Positions 2,879-26,104 of a stretch of 29,980 nt of DNA are shown here, piece by piece (position 1 is the stretch's first letter; each line of letters starts with the position of its first letter). Both the position numbers and the translations under genes were made by a program. The notes below the pieces were generated by a model that worked only from the letters and a program-made list of their open reading frames with translations, ran no database searches and was not told the origin of the DNA. Source of the stretch: a virus. The stretch spans positions 1 through 29,980 of the IMG/VR virus record IMGVR_UViG_3300009285_001487; one strand, written 5' to 3'.

Positions 2879-3346
2879 ATGCCATTTATTAAAGGTAAAA
2901 CCTCTTGGAACAAAGGATTAAAGATGCCATTTAAGCATAGAAAAATGGCAAAGGGATTTATGCCTGTTAAAGCGTTCAAAAAAGGCAATTCTCCTTGGAA
3001 TAAAGGAAAGAAACTTAATTATCCAGTTTGGAATAAAGGAGGAAAAGGAAGACAGAAAAACCACAATATTGATGGATTAAAAATAGGTCAACATTTTAAT
3101 TTTAAAGAAGTTGGATATACTTATGCCGCTCTTCATCAGTGGGTGAAACGAAGGTTGGTCAGACCCAATAAGTGTTGTAAATGTGGTGGAACAGGAAAGA
3201 TACAATTAGCTAACAAAAGCGGGAAATACTTGAGAAACTTAAATGATTGGATTTGGTTGTGTGTATTTTGTCATCGTCAATACGATGGTCTAGTTGGTGA
3301 TTGGAAAACGAGACCGAGTAAAATTAAAAAAAGATTCAATGTATAG
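2879..3346 (+). CDS. HNH endonuclease with NUMOD-like repeats, between the transketolase halves
   Basis: 155 residues. The N-terminal third is very basic and repeats the short TSWNKG / SPWNKG / PVWNKGG unit, a NUMOD3-like DNA-binding helix found in phage homing endonucleases. The C-terminal part has a zinc-bound treble clef (KCCKCGG near residue 99, LCVFCHRQYDG near 131) with the asparagine and histidine expected for an HNH fold, although the first HNH histidine is not clear, so activity is uncertain. It has its own promoter just upstream and no ribosome site. Its last 8 bases overlap the start of the transketolase C subunit. It is best read as a mobile gene inserted between two genes that belong together. 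Confidence 0.82.
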   Translation: MPFIKGKTSWNKGLKMPFKHRKMAKGFMPVKAFKKGNSPWNKGKKLNYPVWNKGGKGRQKNHNIDGLKIGQHFNFKEVGYTYAALHQWVKRRLVRPNKCCKCGGTGKIQLANKSGKYLRNLNDWIWLCVFCHRQYDGLVGDWKTRPSKIKKRFNV

Positions 3347-3851
3347 ATTTTTAAAATCGTCAATTCATGATAGTCAGCGAGGATACTTTGCGTATGCACT
3401 TTTTAAGGAGATGGAAAAAAACAAAGATGTTTTTTTGGTAGTTGGAGACTTGGGATACAAGATATTCGATAGACATTTTGCGTGTTTTCCTGAAAGGACT
3501 TTCAATACCGGAGCAGCCGAGCAATCTTTAATAGGTATATCAGTAGGGCTAGCACTAGAAGGTAAAATACCATTTGCTTATTCGATAACTCCATTTTTAT
3601 TATATAGGGGTTTTGAAACTATCAGGAATTATATCAATAGGGAGAAGATAGCTGTCAAGTTGGTAGGGGGAGGTAGGGGCAGGGATTACCTAGCAGACGG
3701 ATGGAGCCACTGGGCCGAGGAGGATAAAAAAGTAATGAGGATCTTTAAAAATATAAAATCTTACTGGCCGGAGACAAAAGAAGAAGTACCCAACTTAGTA
3801 AAAGAAATGATAAAAAAGAAGAAACCTTATTATTTGAACCTAAAAAGGTAG
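3339..3851 (+). CDS. Transketolase, pyrimidine-binding subunit
   Basis: 170 residues from the ATG at 3339, which overlaps the HNH gene. The catalytic Glu61 lies in TGAAEQS, the TPP-activating glutamate position of transketolases. The pyrimidine-site region follows (GISVGLALEGKIPFAYS), then DGWSHWAEED, matching the DG-x-x-H-x-x-x-ED segment. The protein stops after this domain: the third, C-terminal transketolase domain (about 120 residues) is absent, so the phage enzyme is a minimal two-domain, two-gene form. It should pair with the subunit at 2153-2854. It closes the sugar operon, and a new promoter starts one base after its stop. Confidence 0.88.
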   Translation: MYRFLKSSIHDSQRGYFAYALFKEMEKNKDVFLVVGDLGYKIFDRHFACFPERTFNTGAAEQSLIGISVGLALEGKIPFAYSITPFLLYRGFETIRNYINREKIAVKLVGGGRGRDYLADGWSHWAEEDKKVMRIFKNIKSYWPETKEEVPNLVKEMIKKKKPYYLNLKR

Positions 3852-3880
3852 TTGACTTATCTATATACACCTTGTATACT
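3852..3880 (+). promoter_or_regulatory. Strong sigma70-like promoter
   Basis: TTGACT (3852-3857), 17 bp, TATACT (3875-3880). It begins right after the transketolase stop and drives the gene at 3911 through a short leader containing the ribosome site AAGGGGGTG. No terminator is visible before 4760, so the pentamer array is probably transcribed from here. Confidence 0.8.
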
Positions 3881-3910: not shown

Positions 3911-4498
3911 ATGCCAACGATATTAAAGTTTGAGATACCAGCTCCAAATATAAAATCTTTATTAGTTGTAATAGAAGGAACTTCTCCATTAATTTTCCAC
4001 AGGTGGTCAGAGAAGGCCAAACAAATGATTCTTGATAAGCAAATGAAAAAGGCTTCCAAGGGTCGTGAAGTTAGAAATCCAGAAAAAGACGTGGAAGATT
4101 CCTATTACAAAAACTCTGAAGGTAAGATAGCTTTTCCGGCACTTTGTATTAAACAAGCAATGGTAAATGCTGTTAGAAACGTAGAGGGGGTTACGATGAC
4201 ACTTCTTCGTGGTTCAGTATTCGTGGTTGGAGACAAAGACGGACTTATTTTGGTTCAATACAAGGAGAAGTCTGGTAGAAGCGATATGGTGAGAGTTGGA
4301 ATGGGATCGGCAGATATTAGATTTCGTGGACAGGTAAAAGACTGGTCTATGAAATTTATTATTAAGTTTAACGCTGATGTAATTTCAGCCGAGCAGGTAC
4401 TTAATCTTCTTAACATATCTGGGTTTAGTTGTGGATTAGGGGAATGGAGACCTGAAAGGAATGGAGACTTTGGAACATTCCAAGTTAGCCAGAGTTGA
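3911..4498 (+). CDS. Phage protein with RAMP/Cas7-like glycine-rich C-terminus
   Basis: 195 residues. I know this only as a widespread uncharacterised phage type. Visible features: an N-terminal strand ending in the small motif EGTSPLIFHRWS (residues 22-33), a basic linker near 45-60, an AFPALCIKQAMVNA helix near 75-90, and a C-terminal motif GLGEWRPERNGDFG (175-188). The opening strand and the closing glycine-rich loop resemble the layout of RAMP-type (Cas5/6/7-like) RNA-binding folds; this is a similarity by eye, not a proven relationship. It has its own promoter and strong ribosome site, which set it apart from the sugar operon. The GGNNN array starts 4 bases after its stop, which suggests the protein may act on that sequence as DNA or RNA. 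Confidence 0.6.
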   Translation: MPTILKFEIPAPNIKSLLVVIEGTSPLIFHRWSEKAKQMILDKQMKKASKGREVRNPEKDVEDSYYKNSEGKIAFPALCIKQAMVNAVRNVEGVTMTLLRGSVFVVGDKDGLILVQYKEKSGRSDMVRVGMGSADIRFRGQVKDWSMKFIIKFNADVISAEQVLNLLNISGFSCGLGEWRPERNGDFGTFQVSQS

Positions 4499-4501
4499 TG
4501 G

Positions 4502-4732
4502 GGCAGGTGTGGAATGGTGCGGTGGGGTATGGTCGGGAGCGGTAAGGAGTGTTGAGGTCGGGTAGGGTTTGGCAGGTGTGGTAAGGTAAGTTCGGGAACG
4601 GTGTGTTTAGGTCGGGCAGTTGGGGAGTGGATAGGTAGGGCTAGCAGAGGTAGGGATTGGCAGGTCAGGTTTGGTACGGTGAGGTAAGGTGTGGTGAGGT
4701 ATGGTGAGGTGAGGTATGGTGAGGTGAGGCAG
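4502..4732 (+). repeat. GGNNN pentamer array with evenly placed GGCAG landmarks
   Basis: The whole gap between two genes is a G-rich, C-poor tract built of 5-base units that start with GG. In-phase runs are 4511-4575 (13 units), 4580-4619 (8), 4629-4668 (8) and 4673-4732 (12, all beginning GG). The phase slips are mostly 4-base units (GTGT, GTGT, GTTT) and directly follow GGCAG or GTCAG. GGCAG occurs at 4502, 4571, 4615, 4659 and 4728, so the spacings are 69, 44, 44 and 69 bases. Units such as GGTGA and GGTAT recur near the end. The tract contains no long open frame. It could be a protein-binding platform, a G-quadruplex former, a packaging or origin site, or a structured 3' UTR. Confidence 0.9.
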
Positions 4733-4759
4733 GATTTATCAGAAAGAAGGTGATTAAAA

Positions 4760-5188
4760 ATGGTTAAAAAAGATATAGTTTTAGAAACATTACAAGGGTT
4801 GGTTAAAAACGGTGAAATTAAACCCGAGGAGGTTGTTGAGTCAGCCAGAGATGAAAATTCTCCTATTCACAACAACTTTGAGTGGGATAATACCGTAGCC
4901 GGTCGGGCATATCGACTTTGGCAAGCGAGACAACTCATTACTTGCAAGTTTAATATTGATGGAAGCAAAGAACAGCAATATTACAATATTAGAACTGTTG
5001 TAAACAAGATTCCAACACGGGGATATTTCACCAAAGAAAAAATACTATCCGACAAGGATATGTATATACAACTTTTAAGAGAAGCGATTGGTGAAATTAA
5101 ATACTGGAAAAAGAAATATATTGAGATCAAAGAACTCGCACCCATTATCAATGAAGACAAAATAGAAGAGATTGAGAATGTCTTATAG
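4760..5188 (+). CDS. Conserved-type phage protein of unknown function
   Basis: 142 residues with AGAAGG as ribosome site and start at 4760. The N-terminal half includes VVESARDENSPIHNNFEWD and then AGRAYRLWQARQLI, a phrase I recognise from many small phage proteins with no assigned role. The C-terminal 50 residues are charged and helical (KYWKKKYIEIKELAP), likely a coiled coil. It lies between the pentamer array and the terminase promoter and is probably co-transcribed with the RAMP-like gene from the promoter at 3852. A helper role in DNA metabolism or packaging is possible but not shown. Confidence 0.7.
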   Translation: MVKKDIVLETLQGLVKNGEIKPEEVVESARDENSPIHNNFEWDNTVAGRAYRLWQARQLITCKFNIDGSKEQQYYNIRTVVNKIPTRGYFTKEKILSDKDMYIQLLREAIGEIKYWKKKYIEIKELAPIINEDKIEEIENVL

Positions 5189-5289: not shown

Positions 5290-5682
5290 ATGAAACATCC
5301 AGGCGGCAGACCAACAAAATATACTCCAGAAGTTATTGATGAATTGAACAAATATCTCGCTGAGGCAATTCCCCAAAATATGAAGATTCCCACAGTTGAA
5401 GGAATAGCCTTGAAGTTGAATATTAGTAAGAATACCTTATATGAATGGGCCAAAAAGAACTCAGAGTTTCAGGACGCTTTGGACGAATTAAAAATGAAGC
5501 AGAAAGAAGCATTAACAGAAATAGGAATCTTTGGAGGCAAAGAAATTAATGCCACAATAGTTTCACTTCTTCTCAAGGTAAACCACGATATGATTGAAAC
5601 AGAAAAGAAAGTAATTACTGGAGAAGATAATCAGCCACTAGAAATAAGAATTGTTAGAAGCAAACACAATGAAGAGGAATAA
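5290..5682 (+). CDS. terS: Terminase small subunit
   Basis: 130 residues from the ATG at 5290. The start HPGGRPTKYTPE and the helix-turn-helix region (PTVEGIALKLNISKNTLYEW, roughly residues 36-55) are typical of phage small terminases that bind the packaging site. The C-terminal part (residues 60-110) is helical and suits oligomerisation. A TTG start at 5260 would add 10 residues, but that codon lies inside the predicted leader RNA, so I prefer 5290. The stop is followed at once by the large-subunit ATG. Confidence 0.85.
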   Translation: MKHPGGRPTKYTPEVIDELNKYLAEAIPQNMKIPTVEGIALKLNISKNTLYEWAKKNSEFQDALDELKMKQKEALTEIGIFGGKEINATIVSLLLKVNHDMIETEKKVITGEDNQPLEIRIVRSKHNEEE

Positions 5683-6990
5683 ATGCAAATTGACTTTGAA
5701 ACAGAAAATTTCCCAGCACAACAGACAATCTTTGATTCAAAAGCCCGTTATAAAATTGTTGTAAAGGGTAGACGTTTTGGTTTAACCAAAGGTGCAGCCA
5801 ACGATTTTATAAATGAAGCTCTTGAGGATAAGTATAAAGCGGGTTTGTGGGTTGATACTGTAAACGCAAACATTGAAAAGTACGTAGAAAGATATTTTAT
5901 ACCGCACCTTAAAAAGTTGCCAAAAACCGTTTGGCGTTGGAGAAAACAGGCCAAAATACTTGATATTAAAAATTCGTACATCGACTTTAGGTCAGCAGAT
6001 AGACCAGAGAATATTGAAGGTTTTGGCTACGATAAGTTGTTTATAAATGAAGCTGGTATCGTTCTGAAAGACGAGTACCTTTGGGACAATGCCATAAAAC
6101 CAATGCTTTGGGATTATCAACCAAGGTGTGTAATTGGCGGTACGCCCAAAGGGATGGGAATATTTAACAAGTTGGCAGAATACGGGAAAGATAAAGATAA
6201 ACCTGAATACGAGTATTTTCACTTTACTAGCTATGATAATCCATATCTTCAACTAGATTTACTTAGAGAAGAAGTAAAAAATATGCCGGAGCGGGTAGTC
6301 AGGCAAGAGGTATATGCTGAGTTTCTGGAAGACACGGGGGTGGTATTTAGGAACGTAAGTGCAATAGCAGACGCTTTACCTGAAAAGCCACTTGATGAAC
6401 ACACCTATGTAATTGGGTGTGATTTAGCCAAAGTTACAGATTTTACAGTAATCAGCGTTTACGACAGAAGTAATAACAAACAGGTTTATCAAGATAGGTT
6501 TAATAAATTGGAATGGCCCTTTCAAAAAGCGAAGATTAAGTCTGTATCAGATCATTATAACCGAGCTTTGGTAATGTTAGACGCAACAGGACTTGGAGAT
6601 CCAATCGCAGACGATCTAACAAGGGCAGGAGTACCAATTGAGCCTATCAAATTAACAAACGAAACAAAGAAACAAATTGTTGAAAAACTGGCAATCTTTA
6701 TTGAACAACGGCACATTCACATGCTAAATATTGAGGACACGATTAAAGAGTTTAATAATTTTACTTATGATATAAGTGCATCAGGTAGAGTAATGTATCA
6801 ATCCCCACAAGGTTTCAATGACGATATTGTGATTAGTCACGCACTCGCAGTATGGTCATTGAACCCCTTGTACAAGGCGACTCATGAGAAGCCAAAGACA
6901 CCTTTACAAGAGGCTTACGAAGAACAAAAAATATTATATGAGGAAACAGACCAAAACCTCGCCGAACTCGACGAGTGGAACGAAAGCTGA
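5683..6990 (+). CDS. terL: Terminase large subunit
   Basis: 435 residues with an ATPase domain and an RNase H-like nuclease domain. The ATP-site segment is KGRRFGLTKGAA (about residues 27-38), a known terminase variant that departs from the classic GxxxxGK[ST]. The Walker B-like strand is KLFINEAG. The nuclease acidic residues are seen in IGCDLAKVTDF, MLDATGLGDP and FNDDIVISHALAVW. The enzyme pumps DNA into the capsid through the portal and cuts concatemers. It directly follows the small subunit and its 3' end overlaps the next gene by about 53 bases. Confidence 0.95.
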   Translation: MQIDFETENFPAQQTIFDSKARYKIVVKGRRFGLTKGAANDFINEALEDKYKAGLWVDTVNANIEKYVERYFIPHLKKLPKTVWRWRKQAKILDIKNSYIDFRSADRPENIEGFGYDKLFINEAGIVLKDEYLWDNAIKPMLWDYQPRCVIGGTPKGMGIFNKLAEYGKDKDKPEYEYFHFTSYDNPYLQLDLLREEVKNMPERVVRQEVYAEFLEDTGVVFRNVSAIADALPEKPLDEHTYVIGCDLAKVTDFTVISVYDRSNNKQVYQDRFNKLEWPFQKAKIKSVSDHYNRALVMLDATGLGDPIADDLTRAGVPIEPIKLTNETKKQIVEKLAIFIEQRHIHMLNIEDTIKEFNNFTYDISASGRVMYQSPQGFNDDIVISHALAVWSLNPLYKATHEKPKTPLQEAYEEQKILYEETDQNLAELDEWNES

Positions 6991-7474: not shown

Positions 7475-7716
7475 TTATTTTGACTTTGGTTATTGTTGCT
7501 CTGGTTGCTTTAATTGGTTGGCAAGAGTGGAATAACCGCAAGGAAAGAGCCAAGTTATTAAACGCTATTCTTGGAAAGAATGTTCAAGAGATCGCCAGTT
7601 TAGATTTAGCAGATAAGACCGTAATCAAGGCAAATACCGACAAACCTGAAATTACACCTCTTGAAAATATGTCCGAGGAAGACTTTGGTAAGGTTATAAA
7701 GACACAAAATGGCTGA
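7471..7716 (+). CDS. Small single-pass membrane protein
   Basis: 81 residues from the ATG at 7471 (ATGA overlap, AGGTGG upstream); a GTG at 7459 would add four residues. One hydrophobic helix (residues 2-18, IILTLVIVALVALIGW) is followed by a basic EWNNRKERAK stretch and a soluble acidic tail. Single-pass proteins of this layout often sit between terminase and portal genes; their function is unknown. It overlaps the portal start by 8 bases. Confidence 0.7.
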   Translation: MIILTLVIVALVALIGWQEWNNRKERAKLLNAILGKNVQEIASLDLADKTVIKANTDKPEITPLENMSEEDFGKVIKTQNG

Positions 7717-9910
7717 TAGATTAAGAGATTATCAAACAAGCAATATATCCTCTGCCTCCATAGGTCAGGCGGTTGATGAGATTATGACTTCAGCTACCTC
7801 ACAACGCAAAACCTTTGAACGCAGGTGGTATGATAACAACTTCTTTGATGACGGCTTTCACTTCAGATATCTTAGTAGAACCCAAAACAAGATAGTTGAT
7901 TTAACAGAACGGCAAAACATGTGGGCACCTATTAGGGCCATACCCAAAGCATCACGTCAGATTAGGGGTGTTGCTAACTTACTTGTATCGAGAGACTTCA
8001 CCCCAACCGTGTATCCGGAACGTATATCCAAGTATCAATACCCCCCCCAACAGGTTCAAGACCCCGAAACAGGAGAGACGGTTAATCAAGAAAACCCCGA
8101 ATATAAACTTGCATTAGATGAAGCTAAAAGGATTGCCAAATCAAGCGGTCACTGGCTGGAAGAAGAGATGCGGGACAAAGACATTCCAGAACTCATAGCC
8201 TATATGGTTATCCTTGCAGCCAAACATTCAGTATCTTACTTGAAGATATGGCCAGATGCAGTTGAAGAAAAGATTAAGGTTGCAGTTAGGGATGCGTTTG
8301 ATATCTACCTGGCCGGTAACGTTAATGAGACAGAAGACTCACCTTACCTAATTGATGCAGTCCCCAAGTTTATAAGTGAGATTAAAGCTAATGAAGAGTT
8401 TGACGAAGAACAACTGGCAAAGATAAACCCTGACAATAAACAAGCCTCAAGCGAAATCAAGAACGCTTACATGACTTCAAAGTATGGCAGAGAGAATAAC
8501 TCTGACAGCAACGCCACGTTAATTCAAAAGGAGTCATTTTTGCAAGAATATATAGATGATGAAATAGTTGAAAGATTAAAGATTCAGTATGGAAAGTATC
8601 AAGACAAAGACTCTGAGGAAGTATTAACTAAAAAGAAAAAAGGGGACAGGGTTATAAGACATTCATTCACAGCAGGGAATATTGGACTCTATGACCGCTA
8701 TACATCGCTTCCTTCTTATCCTTATGCAGACTTCAGGTTTGAACCAGGTCCTATCTATCAAGTGCCTCTCATTGAACGATTCATTCCAGCCAACAAATCC
8801 CTCGACATGCTTATCAGTAGAGGCGAAAGGATAGCTCACACAATGGTTGTGGGAACTTGGTTGAAGAGCAAGGGACAGTCATTCAATATTACCAACCAAG
8901 CCGGAGGGCAGGTAATCGAGTATGAAGGTGTACCCCCGACACAAGGTCAAATGGCCAATATACCAACATTCTTCTTTGAGTTAATTGGCTTTATGCAAGC
9001 CTTAATAGAAGAGCAGGGTGTATCAACCTCAACGCTTGGTAAACTTCCTTCAGGAGTAAAAGCCAATGCAGCCATCGAGAGTCTTAAAGAGAGTGAATAT
9101 GCCAACTTAGTCATAGCCGACAGACGCTTAAAGCAGACAGTTAAAAAGATTGCCCAAAAGTTCCTAGATATAGCCGATGATTACTTCACCTCACCCAAGA
9201 CGGTTTACTACCTGGAGAAAGGCGAGCCACAGTATTATGACGTTATCGGAGCCAGTGCATTAAAGAAACGACAGGAAGTTGGTGTTGAAACTCCCAAAGA
9301 TGTCGTGCCTCTTAAAAAGGATTATAAAGTTGAAATTGAAATTTCAACAACGCCAGCCTATACACGCCAGGGACAAAGAGAAGTATTAAACGGACTTATG
9401 GACAAAATGATTCAGTTGGCAACAGGAGGTCTTATTCCTCCCGAAGCCATTAAAGCAGTGGTTCAACAGTTCCTAGACACTTACCAGTTCGGAGCAACAA
9501 GTGAGATAATGGATGCGATAGAAGACTTTGGACAAACGGGTAATATGGAACAAAATCAGATAGAAGCAATCAAAGTAGCCCTAATGGAAGTATTCAAAGA
9601 CCTTAAAGGAAGTGAAATGTTCCCAGATCAAAAGACCAGGATAGACGAGAATAAGGTGGCCGCGCTTGAAGTAATGAAAGACACGGGTGGGGGTAAACCT
9701 GCGCAACAAGAGGAAAAAGGCCCAAGTAAATCCATATCATTCAAAGACTTACCAGCAGAAGGCAAAGTACAACTGGCTGCACAGGCTGATATTGAGTTAT
9801 CACCAGAACAAATAAAAGCTCAGGAAGAAGAAACACAGAAGGTTGCGATGGCTAATGCCAAAGCCAAAGTAGTAGTAAAACCAAATGCCACTAATAAAAA
9901 GCAAAAGTAA
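7709..9910 (+). CDS. Portal protein
   Basis: 733 residues, a large portal that would form the dodecameric DNA gate at one capsid vertex. The order (terminase, small genes, portal, scaffold, capsid) and the content fit: residues near 60-75 carry LTERQNMWAPIRAIPKASRQ, a clip/wing region follows, then a long mixed stretch, and VSTSTLGKLPSGVKANAAIE around 441-460 resembles the segment of podovirus-type portals before the crown. The C-terminal 80 residues are helical, charged and rich in Gln/Lys/Ala, as in crown or barrel tails. No frameshift is seen. Confidence 0.85.
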   Translation: MADRLRDYQTSNISSASIGQAVDEIMTSATSQRKTFERRWYDNNFFDDGFHFRYLSRTQNKIVDLTERQNMWAPIRAIPKASRQIRGVANLLVSRDFTPTVYPERISKYQYPPQQVQDPETGETVNQENPEYKLALDEAKRIAKSSGHWLEEEMRDKDIPELIAYMVILAAKHSVSYLKIWPDAVEEKIKVAVRDAFDIYLAGNVNETEDSPYLIDAVPKFISEIKANEEFDEEQLAKINPDNKQASSEIKNAYMTSKYGRENNSDSNATLIQKESFLQEYIDDEIVERLKIQYGKYQDKDSEEVLTKKKKGDRVIRHSFTAGNIGLYDRYTSLPSYPYADFRFEPGPIYQVPLIERFIPANKSLDMLISRGERIAHTMVVGTWLKSKGQSFNITNQAGGQVIEYEGVPPTQGQMANIPTFFFELIGFMQALIEEQGVSTSTLGKLPSGVKANAAIESLKESEYANLVIADRRLKQTVKKIAQKFLDIADDYFTSPKTVYYLEKGEPQYYDVIGASALKKRQEVGVETPKDVVPLKKDYKVEIEISTTPAYTRQGQREVLNGLMDKMIQLATGGLIPPEAIKAVVQQFLDTYQFGATSEIMDAIEDFGQTGNMEQNQIEAIKVALMEVFKDLKGSEMFPDQKTRIDENKVAALEVMKDTGGGKPAQQEEKGPSKSISFKDLPAEGKVQLAAQADIELSPEQIKAQEEETQKVAMANAKAKVVVKPNATNKKQK

Positions 9911-14163: not shown

Positions 14164-14750
14164 GTAATATACTTAAATTATATAAAATGTTAGAAGACAA
14201 CAAAGCAAGATTCATAGACGAAGTGTTTGAAAAGGAAATCTATAAACCCACATGTCCGCAATTAACAATTATTGATGCAGGAGCTTATGAAGGTGAATTT
14301 TCTTTTTACAGTTATCCTTTTGCTAAAAAGATATATGCTATTGAACCAGACCCAAGGCCTTTCGAGATTATGAAAACCCACGTAGAGGAGTTTGAGGTTG
14401 GTAATATAATTCTTCCATTTAACATTGCCTTGGCTAAAGAAGATGGCGAGCGCAACTTTTTTAATTCTGGATACGGAGGAAGTGCATTTAAGAGTGGTGC
14501 AGATACTATCGTAGTAAAAACACAGTCACTAGCGAATTTTATGAAAGAGAATAAAATTGATCAGGTTGACGTGTTAAAAATAGATGTTGAAAGTGCAGAA
14601 AGAGAAATATTTGGCGCTCCCGACTTTCCTTCGGTGGCAGATAAAATAAAAATGATAATAGGTGAACACGGAGATGGATTACCCGAGATTCTTTTGCCGT
14701 TAGGATTTAAACTTAAAGATTATCAATATGGATTTATATACACAAGATGA
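14160..14750 (+). CDS. FkbM-family methyltransferase 2
   Basis: 196 residues with the same fold as the gene before it but clearly diverged: SAM motif IIDAGAYEGEF (Gly-x-Gly reduced to GAYEG), acidic strand IYAIEPDP, and VLKIDVESAEREIF in place of DVEGSE. The serine/alanine change in the DVEG motif may alter substrate choice. The pair probably arose by duplication or joint recruitment and would methylate different positions of a sugar. It starts and ends on ATGA overlaps with its neighbours, tying it to the chaperonin genes. Confidence 0.8.
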   Translation: MSNILKLYKMLEDNKARFIDEVFEKEIYKPTCPQLTIIDAGAYEGEFSFYSYPFAKKIYAIEPDPRPFEIMKTHVEEFEVGNIILPFNIALAKEDGERNFFNSGYGGSAFKSGADTIVVKTQSLANFMKENKIDQVDVLKIDVESAEREIFGAPDFPSVADKIKMIIGEHGDGLPEILLPLGFKLKDYQYGFIYTR

Positions 14751-15031
14751 TTAAACCACTTCCTGGCTATATTTTAGTAGAGCCTATTAAAGAGGAAACT
14801 CAATCTGGTGGTATTTATTTACCACAAGATTTAAATGACAAACCAAGTAAGGGGAAAGTTGTTGCCATTGGTTACTGGACTAAAGACTGGAAAGAACAAT
14901 GGGCCGAAATAGAAAACTTTGAAATTGGTCAAACAATTCTTTTTAAGAAGTGGACAAATCAGGAGGTTAAATACGAGGGGAAAGAATATCTACTTGTTAA
15001 ATTTGATGAATTGTTGGCAATAATAGAATGA
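14747..15031 (+). CDS. groES: GroES co-chaperonin
   Basis: 94 residues. The start IKPLPGYILVEP, the mobile loop EETQSGGIYLP that contacts GroEL, the GKVVAIG strand and the closing KYEGKEYLLVKFDELLAII are all diagnostic of Cpn10. The GGIYL tripeptide region has Tyr where host proteins usually have Val. Between the two halves is a Trp-rich YWTKDWKEQWAEIENFEIG stretch that may be an altered roof. It would form the heptameric lid of the phage GroEL and is coupled to it by ATGA (15028-15031). Confidence 0.95.
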   Translation: MIKPLPGYILVEPIKEETQSGGIYLPQDLNDKPSKGKVVAIGYWTKDWKEQWAEIENFEIGQTILFKKWTNQEVKYEGKEYLLVKFDELLAIIE

Positions 15032-16611
15032 AAATAACAAAAGAATTATTATTTGGTACAAGTGCAAGAAACAAAATCCTAAAAGGGGTTAATGTTGTTG
15101 CTGAGGCAGTTGCGACAACTCTCGGTCCAAGAGGTCGTAATGTAGCCATAAATGACCGTTTTGCAACCCCCACAATACTTCACGATGGCGTATCAGTAGC
15201 CCGCCAAGTTAATCTTAAAGACCAATTCGAGGACATGGGAGCTGAAATTCTCAAAACCGCAGCTATTAGAACCAACGAGGTGGCGGGAGATGGCACTACA
15301 ACTGCAACCATATTGGGTCAGGCGTTAATCAAAGAGGCGTTCCAGGCGATAGCGTCGGGAGCTAATCCAATGGTTATCAAGCAACAAATTGAGAAAGCCT
15401 CAAAGTTGGTTATGGAAGAGTTAAAGAAATTGACCAAAAAGATCGAAACAGATGAAGAAATCGCACAAGTAGCCACAATTTCCTCAACAGATCCCGATAT
15501 CGGGAAACTTGTAGCAGAAACCATCAAAAAAGTCGGTAAAGACGGCATTATCACCACAGAAGAAGGTAAAAAACTTGAAACTGAAGTTGAATATAAACAA
15601 GGCATGGAAATAGACAGGGGTTACCTTTCACCCTACTTTGTGAACAAAAACGAGACTGTCGAGGCTGTTATCGAAGACCCTTACATCCTAATTACCGACA
15701 AAAAGATAAACCATCAATATGAAATAGCCCCCTTGCTTCAAAAGTTACTTGAAAAGAAGATTAGAAGCCTTGTTATTGTTGCCGGAGAGGTTGTTGAGGA
15801 AGGAATGGCGGTTTTGGTTATAAATAAACTAAAAGGGGTATTCGACTTGGTAGCAATACAAGCTCCCGCCTACGGAGGCAGAAGAATTGATGAGTTGGAG
15901 GACATTGCCGCACTTACTGGTGGTATAGCCATACTTGAAGACAGTGGCAGACTTTTGGATAGCGTTGAAATTGAAGAGTTGGGCAAGGCTGAAAAGGTAA
16001 CGGTAGACAGGGACAAAACCATTATCCTTAACGGTGCGGGTACAAAAACCATTGTAAATAAGCGGATAAACGAGTTAAAAGAGCAAATTAAGGTAGCAAG
16101 CAGTGAATTTGATGGAGATATCAAAAAACAACGCCTCGCAAACCTTACAAGCAGTGTCGCAGTTATAAATGTAGGTGGTGCAACCGAAGTCGAAGTAAAA
16201 GAGAAGAAAGAAAGAGTAATAGATGCCGTAAACGCTACAAAAGCAGCAATAGATGAAGGAATAGTTGCCGGAGGGCAGATGGCATTGGTAAACATCTCCA
16301 AGATGCCCTTCTGGGGCGATGTGAGCGATTTTGGCGCGTTAATACTCAAAAAAGCACTAAGGATGCCTTTCAAGAGACTTATCGAAAATACAGGCTTAGA
16401 TTACGCAGAAATTTGGGGCAGTCTATCAGATCAGAAATATCCTATGGGAATTGACGTTACAGATGGCAAAGTAAAGAATTTGATAGAAGCGGGGATTATT
16501 GATCCGGTAAAAGTTGAGCGTGTAGCGTTAGAAAATGCAGTTTCAGTTGCCACAATGTTAATGACAACAAATGTCCTTATTTCTGAACTAAAACAAGAAG
16601 ATGAAAAATAA
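15028..16611 (+). CDS. groEL: GroEL chaperonin
   Basis: 527 residues with a full chaperonin layout. The ATP site shows TLGPRGRNV (31-39) and GDGTTTA (87-93), with Asp88 at the catalytic position. The apical substrate-binding region holds GYLSPYFVN, and the other nucleotide segments IDAVNATKAAIDEG and AGIIDPVKVE are present. Oddities: the conserved PGGG turn reads VAGGQ, and the C-terminal GGM-repeat tail is absent (it ends ELKQEDEK). The protein should fold substrates in an ATP-driven ring with the phage GroES. A complete pair inside a methyltransferase/glycosyltransferase module is unusual. The 3' end overlaps the next gene by 11 bases. Confidence 0.97.
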   Translation: MKITKELLFGTSARNKILKGVNVVAEAVATTLGPRGRNVAINDRFATPTILHDGVSVARQVNLKDQFEDMGAEILKTAAIRTNEVAGDGTTTATILGQALIKEAFQAIASGANPMVIKQQIEKASKLVMEELKKLTKKIETDEEIAQVATISSTDPDIGKLVAETIKKVGKDGIITTEEGKKLETEVEYKQGMEIDRGYLSPYFVNKNETVEAVIEDPYILITDKKINHQYEIAPLLQKLLEKKIRSLVIVAGEVVEEGMAVLVINKLKGVFDLVAIQAPAYGGRRIDELEDIAALTGGIAILEDSGRLLDSVEIEELGKAEKVTVDRDKTIILNGAGTKTIVNKRINELKEQIKVASSEFDGDIKKQRLANLTSSVAVINVGGATEVEVKEKKERVIDAVNATKAAIDEGIVAGGQMALVNISKMPFWGDVSDFGALILKKALRMPFKRLIENTGLDYAEIWGSLSDQKYPMGIDVTDGKVKNLIEAGIIDPVKVERVALENAVSVATMLMTTNVLISELKQEDEK

Positions 16612-24975: not shown

Positions 24976-25320
24976 ATGACAGATTACGGAATAAAAATAT
25001 CACAAGACGGGTATGGTGTTGGAACCTCGAATATTGAGGACCTTGTGATGACTTCTAAAGCCAATCAATGGAAAGTTCATACACAAGGAGAAGTAACCTT
25101 TACGGGTACAGCACAAACAATTCAAGTAGAACACGGGTTGGGTTATACTCCAGGATTTTTAGTTTTGTTTCATAGTAAGTATTGGACGGGTACAGATGAA
25201 TATAGATATGCATGGACAAACCCAGGAGCATGGAACGCAAATGGAACATATCTTAATTTGAGAGGACAATTACCAGATGACAGGGCTATGTATGTAATTT
25301 TTAAAGATTTTGGAGCATGA
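24976..25320 (+). CDS. Fibre-tip-like protein 1 of a tandem trio
   Basis: 114 residues, N-terminus TDYGIKISQDGYGVGT, followed by variable sequence, then the strand HGLGYTPGFLVLF that the two following genes also show in altered form (HNFGYYPAYVHY, HDLGYVPFVLVFF). Small beta domains of this type cap phage fibres and often bind the receptor. The gene starts directly after the shaft gene and ends on ATGA with copy 2. The shared start is also shared in DNA (50 identical bases with copy 2). Confidence 0.72.
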   Translation: MTDYGIKISQDGYGVGTSNIEDLVMTSKANQWKVHTQGEVTFTGTAQTIQVEHGLGYTPGFLVLFHSKYWTGTDEYRYAWTNPGAWNANGTYLNLRGQLPDDRAMYVIFKDFGA

Positions 25321-25366
25321 CAGATTACGGAATAAAAATATCACAAGACGGGTATGGTGTTGGAAC
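24976..25366 (+). repeat. 50-base direct repeat at the start of two fibre-tip genes
   Basis: Bases 24976-25025 and 25317-25366 are identical, covering the ATG and the first 16 codons of each gene. It is a ready site for homologous recombination that would delete or swap the gene body between them. Confidence 0.95.
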
Positions 25367-25706
25367 TGCTGCTGACAGAGAATTATTATTAAGCAGTAAA
25401 TTCCCTTTTCTTAAAACATTTGCACAGGGAGAAGTTGCGTTTAGTGTGACAGGAACTGGCCAATATGAACAGGATATTACACACAATTTTGGATATTATC
25501 CTGCATATGTTCACTATAATGTAACCCAATTTCTAGGTGCAGAAAGACAAATTGGTGGTTTTAGAGCCGAGGGAACATCTTCATATCAGTCAATTGAGTC
25601 ATATGTTGGAACATCAATTTTGAAACTTGCGTATTATTCAGAGGGATTATCTTATCCTTTTACGGTTAGATTATATTATTATTTATTTTATGACAAAATA
25701 GCATGA
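25317..25706 (+). CDS. Fibre-tip-like protein 2 of a tandem trio
   Basis: 129 residues. The first 17 residues are identical to copy 1, and the DNA is identical for 50 bases; the rest diverges strongly, with VTGTGQYEQDITHNFGYYPAYVHY as the matching central strand. The C-terminus (FTVRLYYYLFYD) is Tyr-rich and differs from the other copies. It overlaps copies 1 and 3 by ATGA. Identical starts with different bodies suggest recent duplication with exchange of the binding part. Confidence 0.72.
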   Translation: MTDYGIKISQDGYGVGTAADRELLLSSKFPFLKTFAQGEVAFSVTGTGQYEQDITHNFGYYPAYVHYNVTQFLGAERQIGGFRAEGTSSYQSIESYVGTSILKLAYYSEGLSYPFTVRLYYYLFYDKIA

Positions 25707-26104
25707 CAGATTACGGATTCAAGGTTAGTCAAGAAGGTTACGATGTTAAAACCGCAACCGACACTCAATTGGTTTTTAGCACCAAGTTTGGTGCATTTCC
25801 ACCAATGTCTATTGTTGCTTCTGGTAGTGTCGAGGCCACAGGCACAGACCCAATAACCATAACCGTTGACCATGATCTTGGTTATGTTCCATTTGTACTT
25901 GTTTTTTTTAATAATGAAGATGAACCTAATAAATGGCAATCTGTCTTTTCAAGCCAACTTGCAGACATTGTTTCACCAAATTTTCCAACAGCCACCTTTT
26001 TAGATGTCTACCCAGACAGATTTATACAGAAATTTGTTGTTGATACTGGAGAAAAAACTGTTACAATTAAATATTATATATTTAATGCTGGAATATCCGT
26101 ATAA
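25703..26104 (+). CDS. Fibre-tip-like protein 3 of a tandem trio
   Basis: 133 residues, N-terminus TDYGFKVSQEGYDVKT, related to but diverged from copies 1 and 2. The central strand is VDHDLGYVPFVLVFF, and the C-terminus ends VTIKYYIFNAGISV. Only the first 15 bases match the other copies exactly, so this is the oldest of the three paralogues. The three could form a mixed tip or give alternative receptor choices. Confidence 0.7.
   Translation: MTDYGFKVSQEGYDVKTATDTQLVFSTKFGAFPPMSIVASGSVEATGTDPITITVDHDLGYVPFVLVFFNNEDEPNKWQSVFSSQLADIVSPNFPTATFLDVYPDRFIQKFVVDTGEKTVTIKYYIFNAGISV

Follow-up and report, generated by a model that had tools for sequence, protein, structure and literature searches.

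A probable VIPR locus in a virus record, its guide blocks separated by a four-base GGCA mark

Positions 3911–5188 of the window (the whole 29,980-base virus record analysed here, probably a fragment) very probably form a VIPR locus, composed of the vipr gene, an array of four guide RNAs and one accessory gene; judged by homology, the locus most likely works as the VIPR of Escherichia phage SUSP1 does. According to the accessible part of the 2026 preprint on this system (PMC13142463), VIPR is an RNA-guided weapon that resembles CRISPR and is deployed by phages against other phages. It consists of a phage RAMP protein and guide RNAs (vrRNAs) of GGY/NN pentamers, reads DNA by a code that skips one base, is mostly virus-borne and is related to CRISPR effectors, whose ancestor it is proposed to be. 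VIPR as a kind of system was already described in 2026, and the window locus is a further example, in which a four-base mark stands between the guides. A VIPR locus is recognized by a small RAMP homologous to SUSP1 Vipr, by an adjacent non-coding tract of GGY and hypervariable NN, and by carriage by a virus; these traits were found in the protein, the array and the window, respectively. The viral origin of the window is indicated by the virus record itself, by its terminases and by a capsid protein. The closest terminases to those of the window are distant, and the protein encoded at 7709–9910 has no phage matches.

The vipr gene (3911–4498, plus strand) encodes a 195-residue protein of phrog_4652, a family of unknown function; it was assigned as a RAMP (Cas7-like) protein by homology and predicted structure. 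Homology to SUSP1 Vipr (PDB 36pp_D) was established with phmmer, using the single protein as query (E = 3.4e-7), and by a profile match extending over 187 residues (E = 6.2e-23). The AlphaFold model is of high confidence (pLDDT 93). Its best structural matches in the PDB are the CRISPR Csm3/Cas7 subunits (Foldseek E = 1.6e-7, Z about 12), and the predicted fold is that of a Cas7/Csm3-type RAMP, in agreement with the RAMP-like character that the sequence-only reading had given to this gene. Searches of Pfam, NCBIfam and PADLOC returned no match for vipr itself. One candidate sigma-70-type promoter (TTGACT-17-TATACT, 10/12 matches) is located at 3852–3880 on the plus strand, 30 bases upstream of vipr; its support is weak, six such sites having been found against 4.7 expected in shuffles.

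The array starts right after the vipr stop codon (4496–4498). GGCAG is present at 4502, 4571, 4615, 4659 and 4728, and the 69-44-44-69 spacing reported earlier proved exact on recheck. In pentamer units, the tract was parsed into four blocks of 13, 8, 8 and 13 units (69 = 13 × 5 + 4; 44 = 8 × 5 + 4), each bounded by the four-base GGCA; the marks are at 4502–4505 (left array edge), 4571–4574, 4615–4618, 4659–4662 and 4728–4731 (right array edge), all on the plus strand. The earlier pentamer counts stand, but the slip that had been placed in the following GTGT or GTTT is better read as GGCA, because GGCA is what the relatives share. Guide block 1 (4506–4570, plus strand) has 13 pentamers, with NN being GT, AT, GC, GG, AT, CG, GC, AA, GT, GA, CG, AG and TT. 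Guide block 2 (4575–4614, plus strand) has eight, with NN being GT, AA, AA, CG, AC, GT, TA and CG, and GGY is kept in five of them. Guide block 3 (4619–4658, plus strand) also has eight, and just three carry exact GGY. Guide block 4 (4663–4727, plus strand) is composed of 13 perfect GGY pentamers with low-complexity NN, and is partly a tandem repeat with a period of 15 bases and 84% matches. In total, GG opens 37 of the 42 units and GGY opens 30. The tract contains no ORF of at least 60 residues, and a search of Rfam gave no family.

The regularity of the tract was compared with that of 5000 dinucleotide-preserving shuffles. GG recurs at lag 5 in 35 cases, against 12.95 (sd 2.99) in the shuffles, whose maximum is 25; none of the 5000 reaches the observed count, and the same holds for lags 10 and 15. 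The longest unbroken GGNNN run has 14 units (shuffle maximum, 8); outside the tract, no run in the window exceeds five units, a length reached at 3662. These values bear out the earlier view that the order goes beyond simple G-richness. A functionless pentanucleotide microsatellite grown by slippage could produce the 15-base repeat of block 4. However, NN is strongly variable in blocks 1–3, the GGCA marks recur in phages whose bacterial hosts are unrelated, and the tract is a predictor of vipr; we regard such an origin as scarcely credible. The predicted RNA fold of the tract is no more stable than those of shuffles (z = 0.04), which is what one would want for a guide that needs to stay open.

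The array may be in partial decay, since five of the eight units of block 3 are off consensus; block 3 is possibly a decayed guide. A rival reading is a VIPR locus with a partly decayed array, in which Vipr is intact and the guides are degenerating or aimed at something now lost. Besides block 3, the reduced GGY of block 2 and the 15-base repeat of block 4, which looks slippage-expanded, point in this direction, and no convincing target of the window guides was found in exact xNN scans of viral contigs, where matches were at chance level. For units 3–10 of block 1, 18 matching stretches were obtained, about the number expected by chance; the best (22/26 bases) is on contig L135, within a regulator-like ORF. 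Block 2 gave one match in the viral contigs, outside any long ORF. Units 1–9 of block 4 also gave one, in contig L229, where a terminase-like large-subunit gene begins; it is in frame with that gene, and the skipped base falls on the wobble position. This match is just 21/26 overall and about one such match is expected, the 18-base patterns of other guides having given two and zero; none of the tested genes is common to L229 and the window, and we treat it as a lead only. Within the window, no convincing self-target was observed (block 2 attained 14/16, a score that 3% of reordered guides also attain), and a guide that is conserved among mycobacteriophages has no match in mycobacterial genomes. 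Against this reading, GG is retained in most units, block 4 shows no departure from GGY, both vipr and the accessory gene are intact, and off-consensus units also occur in the tract of viral contig L001, the closest of the relatives found, whose Vipr is 68% identical. We judge this rival unlikely.

In L001, vipr and the accessory gene are arranged as in the window, and a GGNNN tract separates them. A similar tract lies beside vipr relatives in L001, Gordonia phage ODay, cyanophage Cy-LDV1, mycobacteriophage Saal, Pseudomonas phage LESphi2 and Felixounavirus Z31, and GGCNN tracts directly adjoin the homologues in Gordonia phages, a cyanophage, mycobacteriophages (Cheoctovirus) and a Pseudomonas phage. 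Relatives keep the tract and shuffles do not reproduce it; neither of the two refuting outcomes named in the sequence-only reading came about. The co-occurrence was also established in the opposite direction. A scan of IMG/VR for ten consecutive GGYNN units, blind to genes, returned at least 120 loci; among the 120 listed, vipr is present in 81 with an HMM from six seed proteins and in 86 with an iterated profile. None of the control loci has vipr (0/20 viral and 0/68 genome; 0/88 together). Tract and vipr are on the same strand in 86/86 cases, at a median distance of 75 bases and never more than 1.5 kb apart. Among the 34 listed tract loci without vipr, some arrays reach the contig end; the remaining ones may represent more distant Vipr types or chance. 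One tract, at 5147–5396 of L100, has fifty unbroken GGYNN units, and no Vipr homologue was found in that locus. The guide array of Gordonia phage UmaThurman (L156, 1801–2124) carries a protein-gene annotation (gp40), which is probably spurious.

These data also bear on the idea that the tract is a DNA element to which the protein binds, serving in packaging, replication or transcription or folding into a G-quadruplex. The strong asymmetry of G over C in the tract and the terminase genes that come next (5293–6990) agree with it. Different from what this idea predicts, gene and tract lie away from the packaging genes in relatives, being near the tape measure gene in ODay and near the excisionase in mycobacteriophages, which speaks against the packaging or replication site proposed earlier. 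In addition, the protein is a Cas7-type RAMP by its model, the tract is always on the vipr coding strand, and a DNA site needs neither register marks nor variable NN. We consider a DNA element very improbable. By homology to VIPR, the tract would instead be an RNA platform for the neighbouring protein, one of the roles that the sequence-only reading had offered while knowing no named element of this form; the form is that of the VIPR guide RNA array in the accessible part of PMC13142463.

A tree built from 87 Vipr proteins places the window Vipr in a clade of 36 (support 100/97), separate from the SUSP1-like Vipr of L002 (Felixounavirus Z31) and from that of Pseudomonas phage L006. This clade takes in 31/31 rows with a phrog_15946-like gene and 24/26 rows with GGCA-marked arrays, L001 and L004 having been entered as GGCA-marked on the basis of the unit parse. 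Within the clade, GGCA can be replaced by CGCA or TCAN. Among relatives, the GGCA-to-GGCA interval is 7–14 pentamers in 112 of 139 blocks; the 69-44-44-69 symmetry is just a matter of block lengths and lies inside the ordinary spread. Block-wise gain and loss was established in mycobacteriophages, those with near-identical Vipr differing by whole GGCA-to-GGCA blocks: one 11-unit block of Saal is absent from ByChance, and two blocks of Donkeykong are absent from Brocalys, while the last half-block is constant among the phages compared. The GGCA-to-GGCA block is therefore regarded as a cassette, and the window would hold four guides. We infer that GGCA is a register-breaking guide boundary. More tentatively, and with somewhat more doubt than conviction, we propose that this Vipr clade, which spans phages with unrelated bacterial hosts, marks off its guides with a register-breaking four-base unit (GGCA, CGCA or TCAN), a minimal punctuation with neither hairpin nor long repeat, and that cassettes of about 7–14 pentamers are gained or lost whole. 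A whole guide array could then be packed with no more than a four-base mark between guides, and the mycobacteriophages offer natural cassettes in cultured phages for studying where guides begin and end, how they are gained and lost, and what they target. The accessible main text of PMC13142463 has no description of a GGCA-type mark, and the four-base punctuation is possibly undescribed. Two further arrays show other layouts: positions 2000–4700 of L095, near a Vipr gene, contain about 40 GGCA marks, mostly 34–54 bases apart (far more guides than in the window), and at 4580–5070 of L093, a VIPR array outside the window's clade, GGCTA-ATG between pentamer blocks makes a 3-base register shift.

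Like VIPR type II, one of seven types and represented by phage SUSP1 and a Pseudomonas fulva prophage in the accessible part of PMC13142463, the window locus has a homologous Vipr RAMP, an adjoining GGY/NN tract, a phage as carrier and a small adjacent gene. Different from type II, its Vipr sits in another supported clade, its small neighbouring gene has no relationship to the gene that accompanies the SUSP1-like vipr in phage Z31, and its guides are contiguous GGCA-separated blocks, whereas type II, as far as that source is accessible, has separate units with a structured tail. In the same source, each vrRNA of the SUSP1 clade ends in an invariable structured 3′ tail, and other types have other array architectures; the window array shows no conserved 3′ tail with structure, and its sole recurring element is GGCA. 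vrRNAs are quoted there as having 9–16 repeats; blocks 2 and 3 of the window, as delimited by GGCA marks, fall below this range. These two points count against the VIPR reading, as do the off-consensus units of block 3, an RNA fold no more stable than those of shuffles and the lack of an assigned target. The contiguous array with register shifts fits the wording 'staggered arrays with overlapping vrRNAs' (PMC13142463, fig. S18, as far as accessible). In phage Z31, downstream of vipr (L002, 1090–1560), four GGYNN tracts are split by a recurring sequence, and no genes are annotated there.

With Cas7/Csm3 of Class 1 CRISPR, the window Vipr has in common the predicted RAMP fold and, presumably, the lining up on a guide RNA. 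In contrast to Class 1 CRISPR, the window has a single small RAMP and a period of 5, not 6, and the VIPR code is non-contiguous in the accessible account of PMC13142463. Near-identical repeats with unique spacers are not present in the window, which has just the four-base marks between pentamer blocks, and no other cas gene was found among the 10 neighbouring proteins scanned or by PADLOC on vipr and the accessory gene.

By homology to the system in PMC13142463, as far as it is accessible, the array would be transcribed, and the RNA would be lined by copies of the small RAMP Vipr that follow its GGYNN pentamers, with GGY gripped by the protein and the two variable bases displayed. The NN pairs would read double-stranded DNA as xNN, one base in three being skipped, and the bound complex would silence a gene belonging to a rival phage or satellite by blocking its transcription. 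In a window-type array the guides would follow each other head to tail, and GGCA, with four bases rather than five, would shift the register by one base. Our own suggestion is that this break may keep one protein filament from running into the next guide, or may mark a processing site.

The putative vipr-accessory gene (vap; 4760–5188, plus strand, 142 residues) comes after the array and was assigned by family search to phrog_15946, a family of unknown function that tracks one Vipr clade; genes vap1–6 are named as accessory genes of VIPR loci in the accessible part of PMC13142463. A weak match to DUF7746 is its sole result in Pfam, NCBIfam and PADLOC. Its model (pLDDT 89) retrieved nothing below E 0.2 from the PDB; the top rows are DNA-binding proteins with insignificant scores. 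Upstream of vipr, a transketolase-like protein is split over two genes, the N-terminal part at 2153–2854 and the pyrimidine-binding part at 3294–3851; the ORF between them (2879–3346) is rich in paired cysteines. Genes for a GroES-like protein and a full-length GroEL are adjacent at 14747–16611. At 24976–26104, three consecutive genes, apparently duplicated, open with a near-identical peptide (MTDYGIKISQDGYGVGT in two of them and MTDYGFKVSQEGYDVKT in one).
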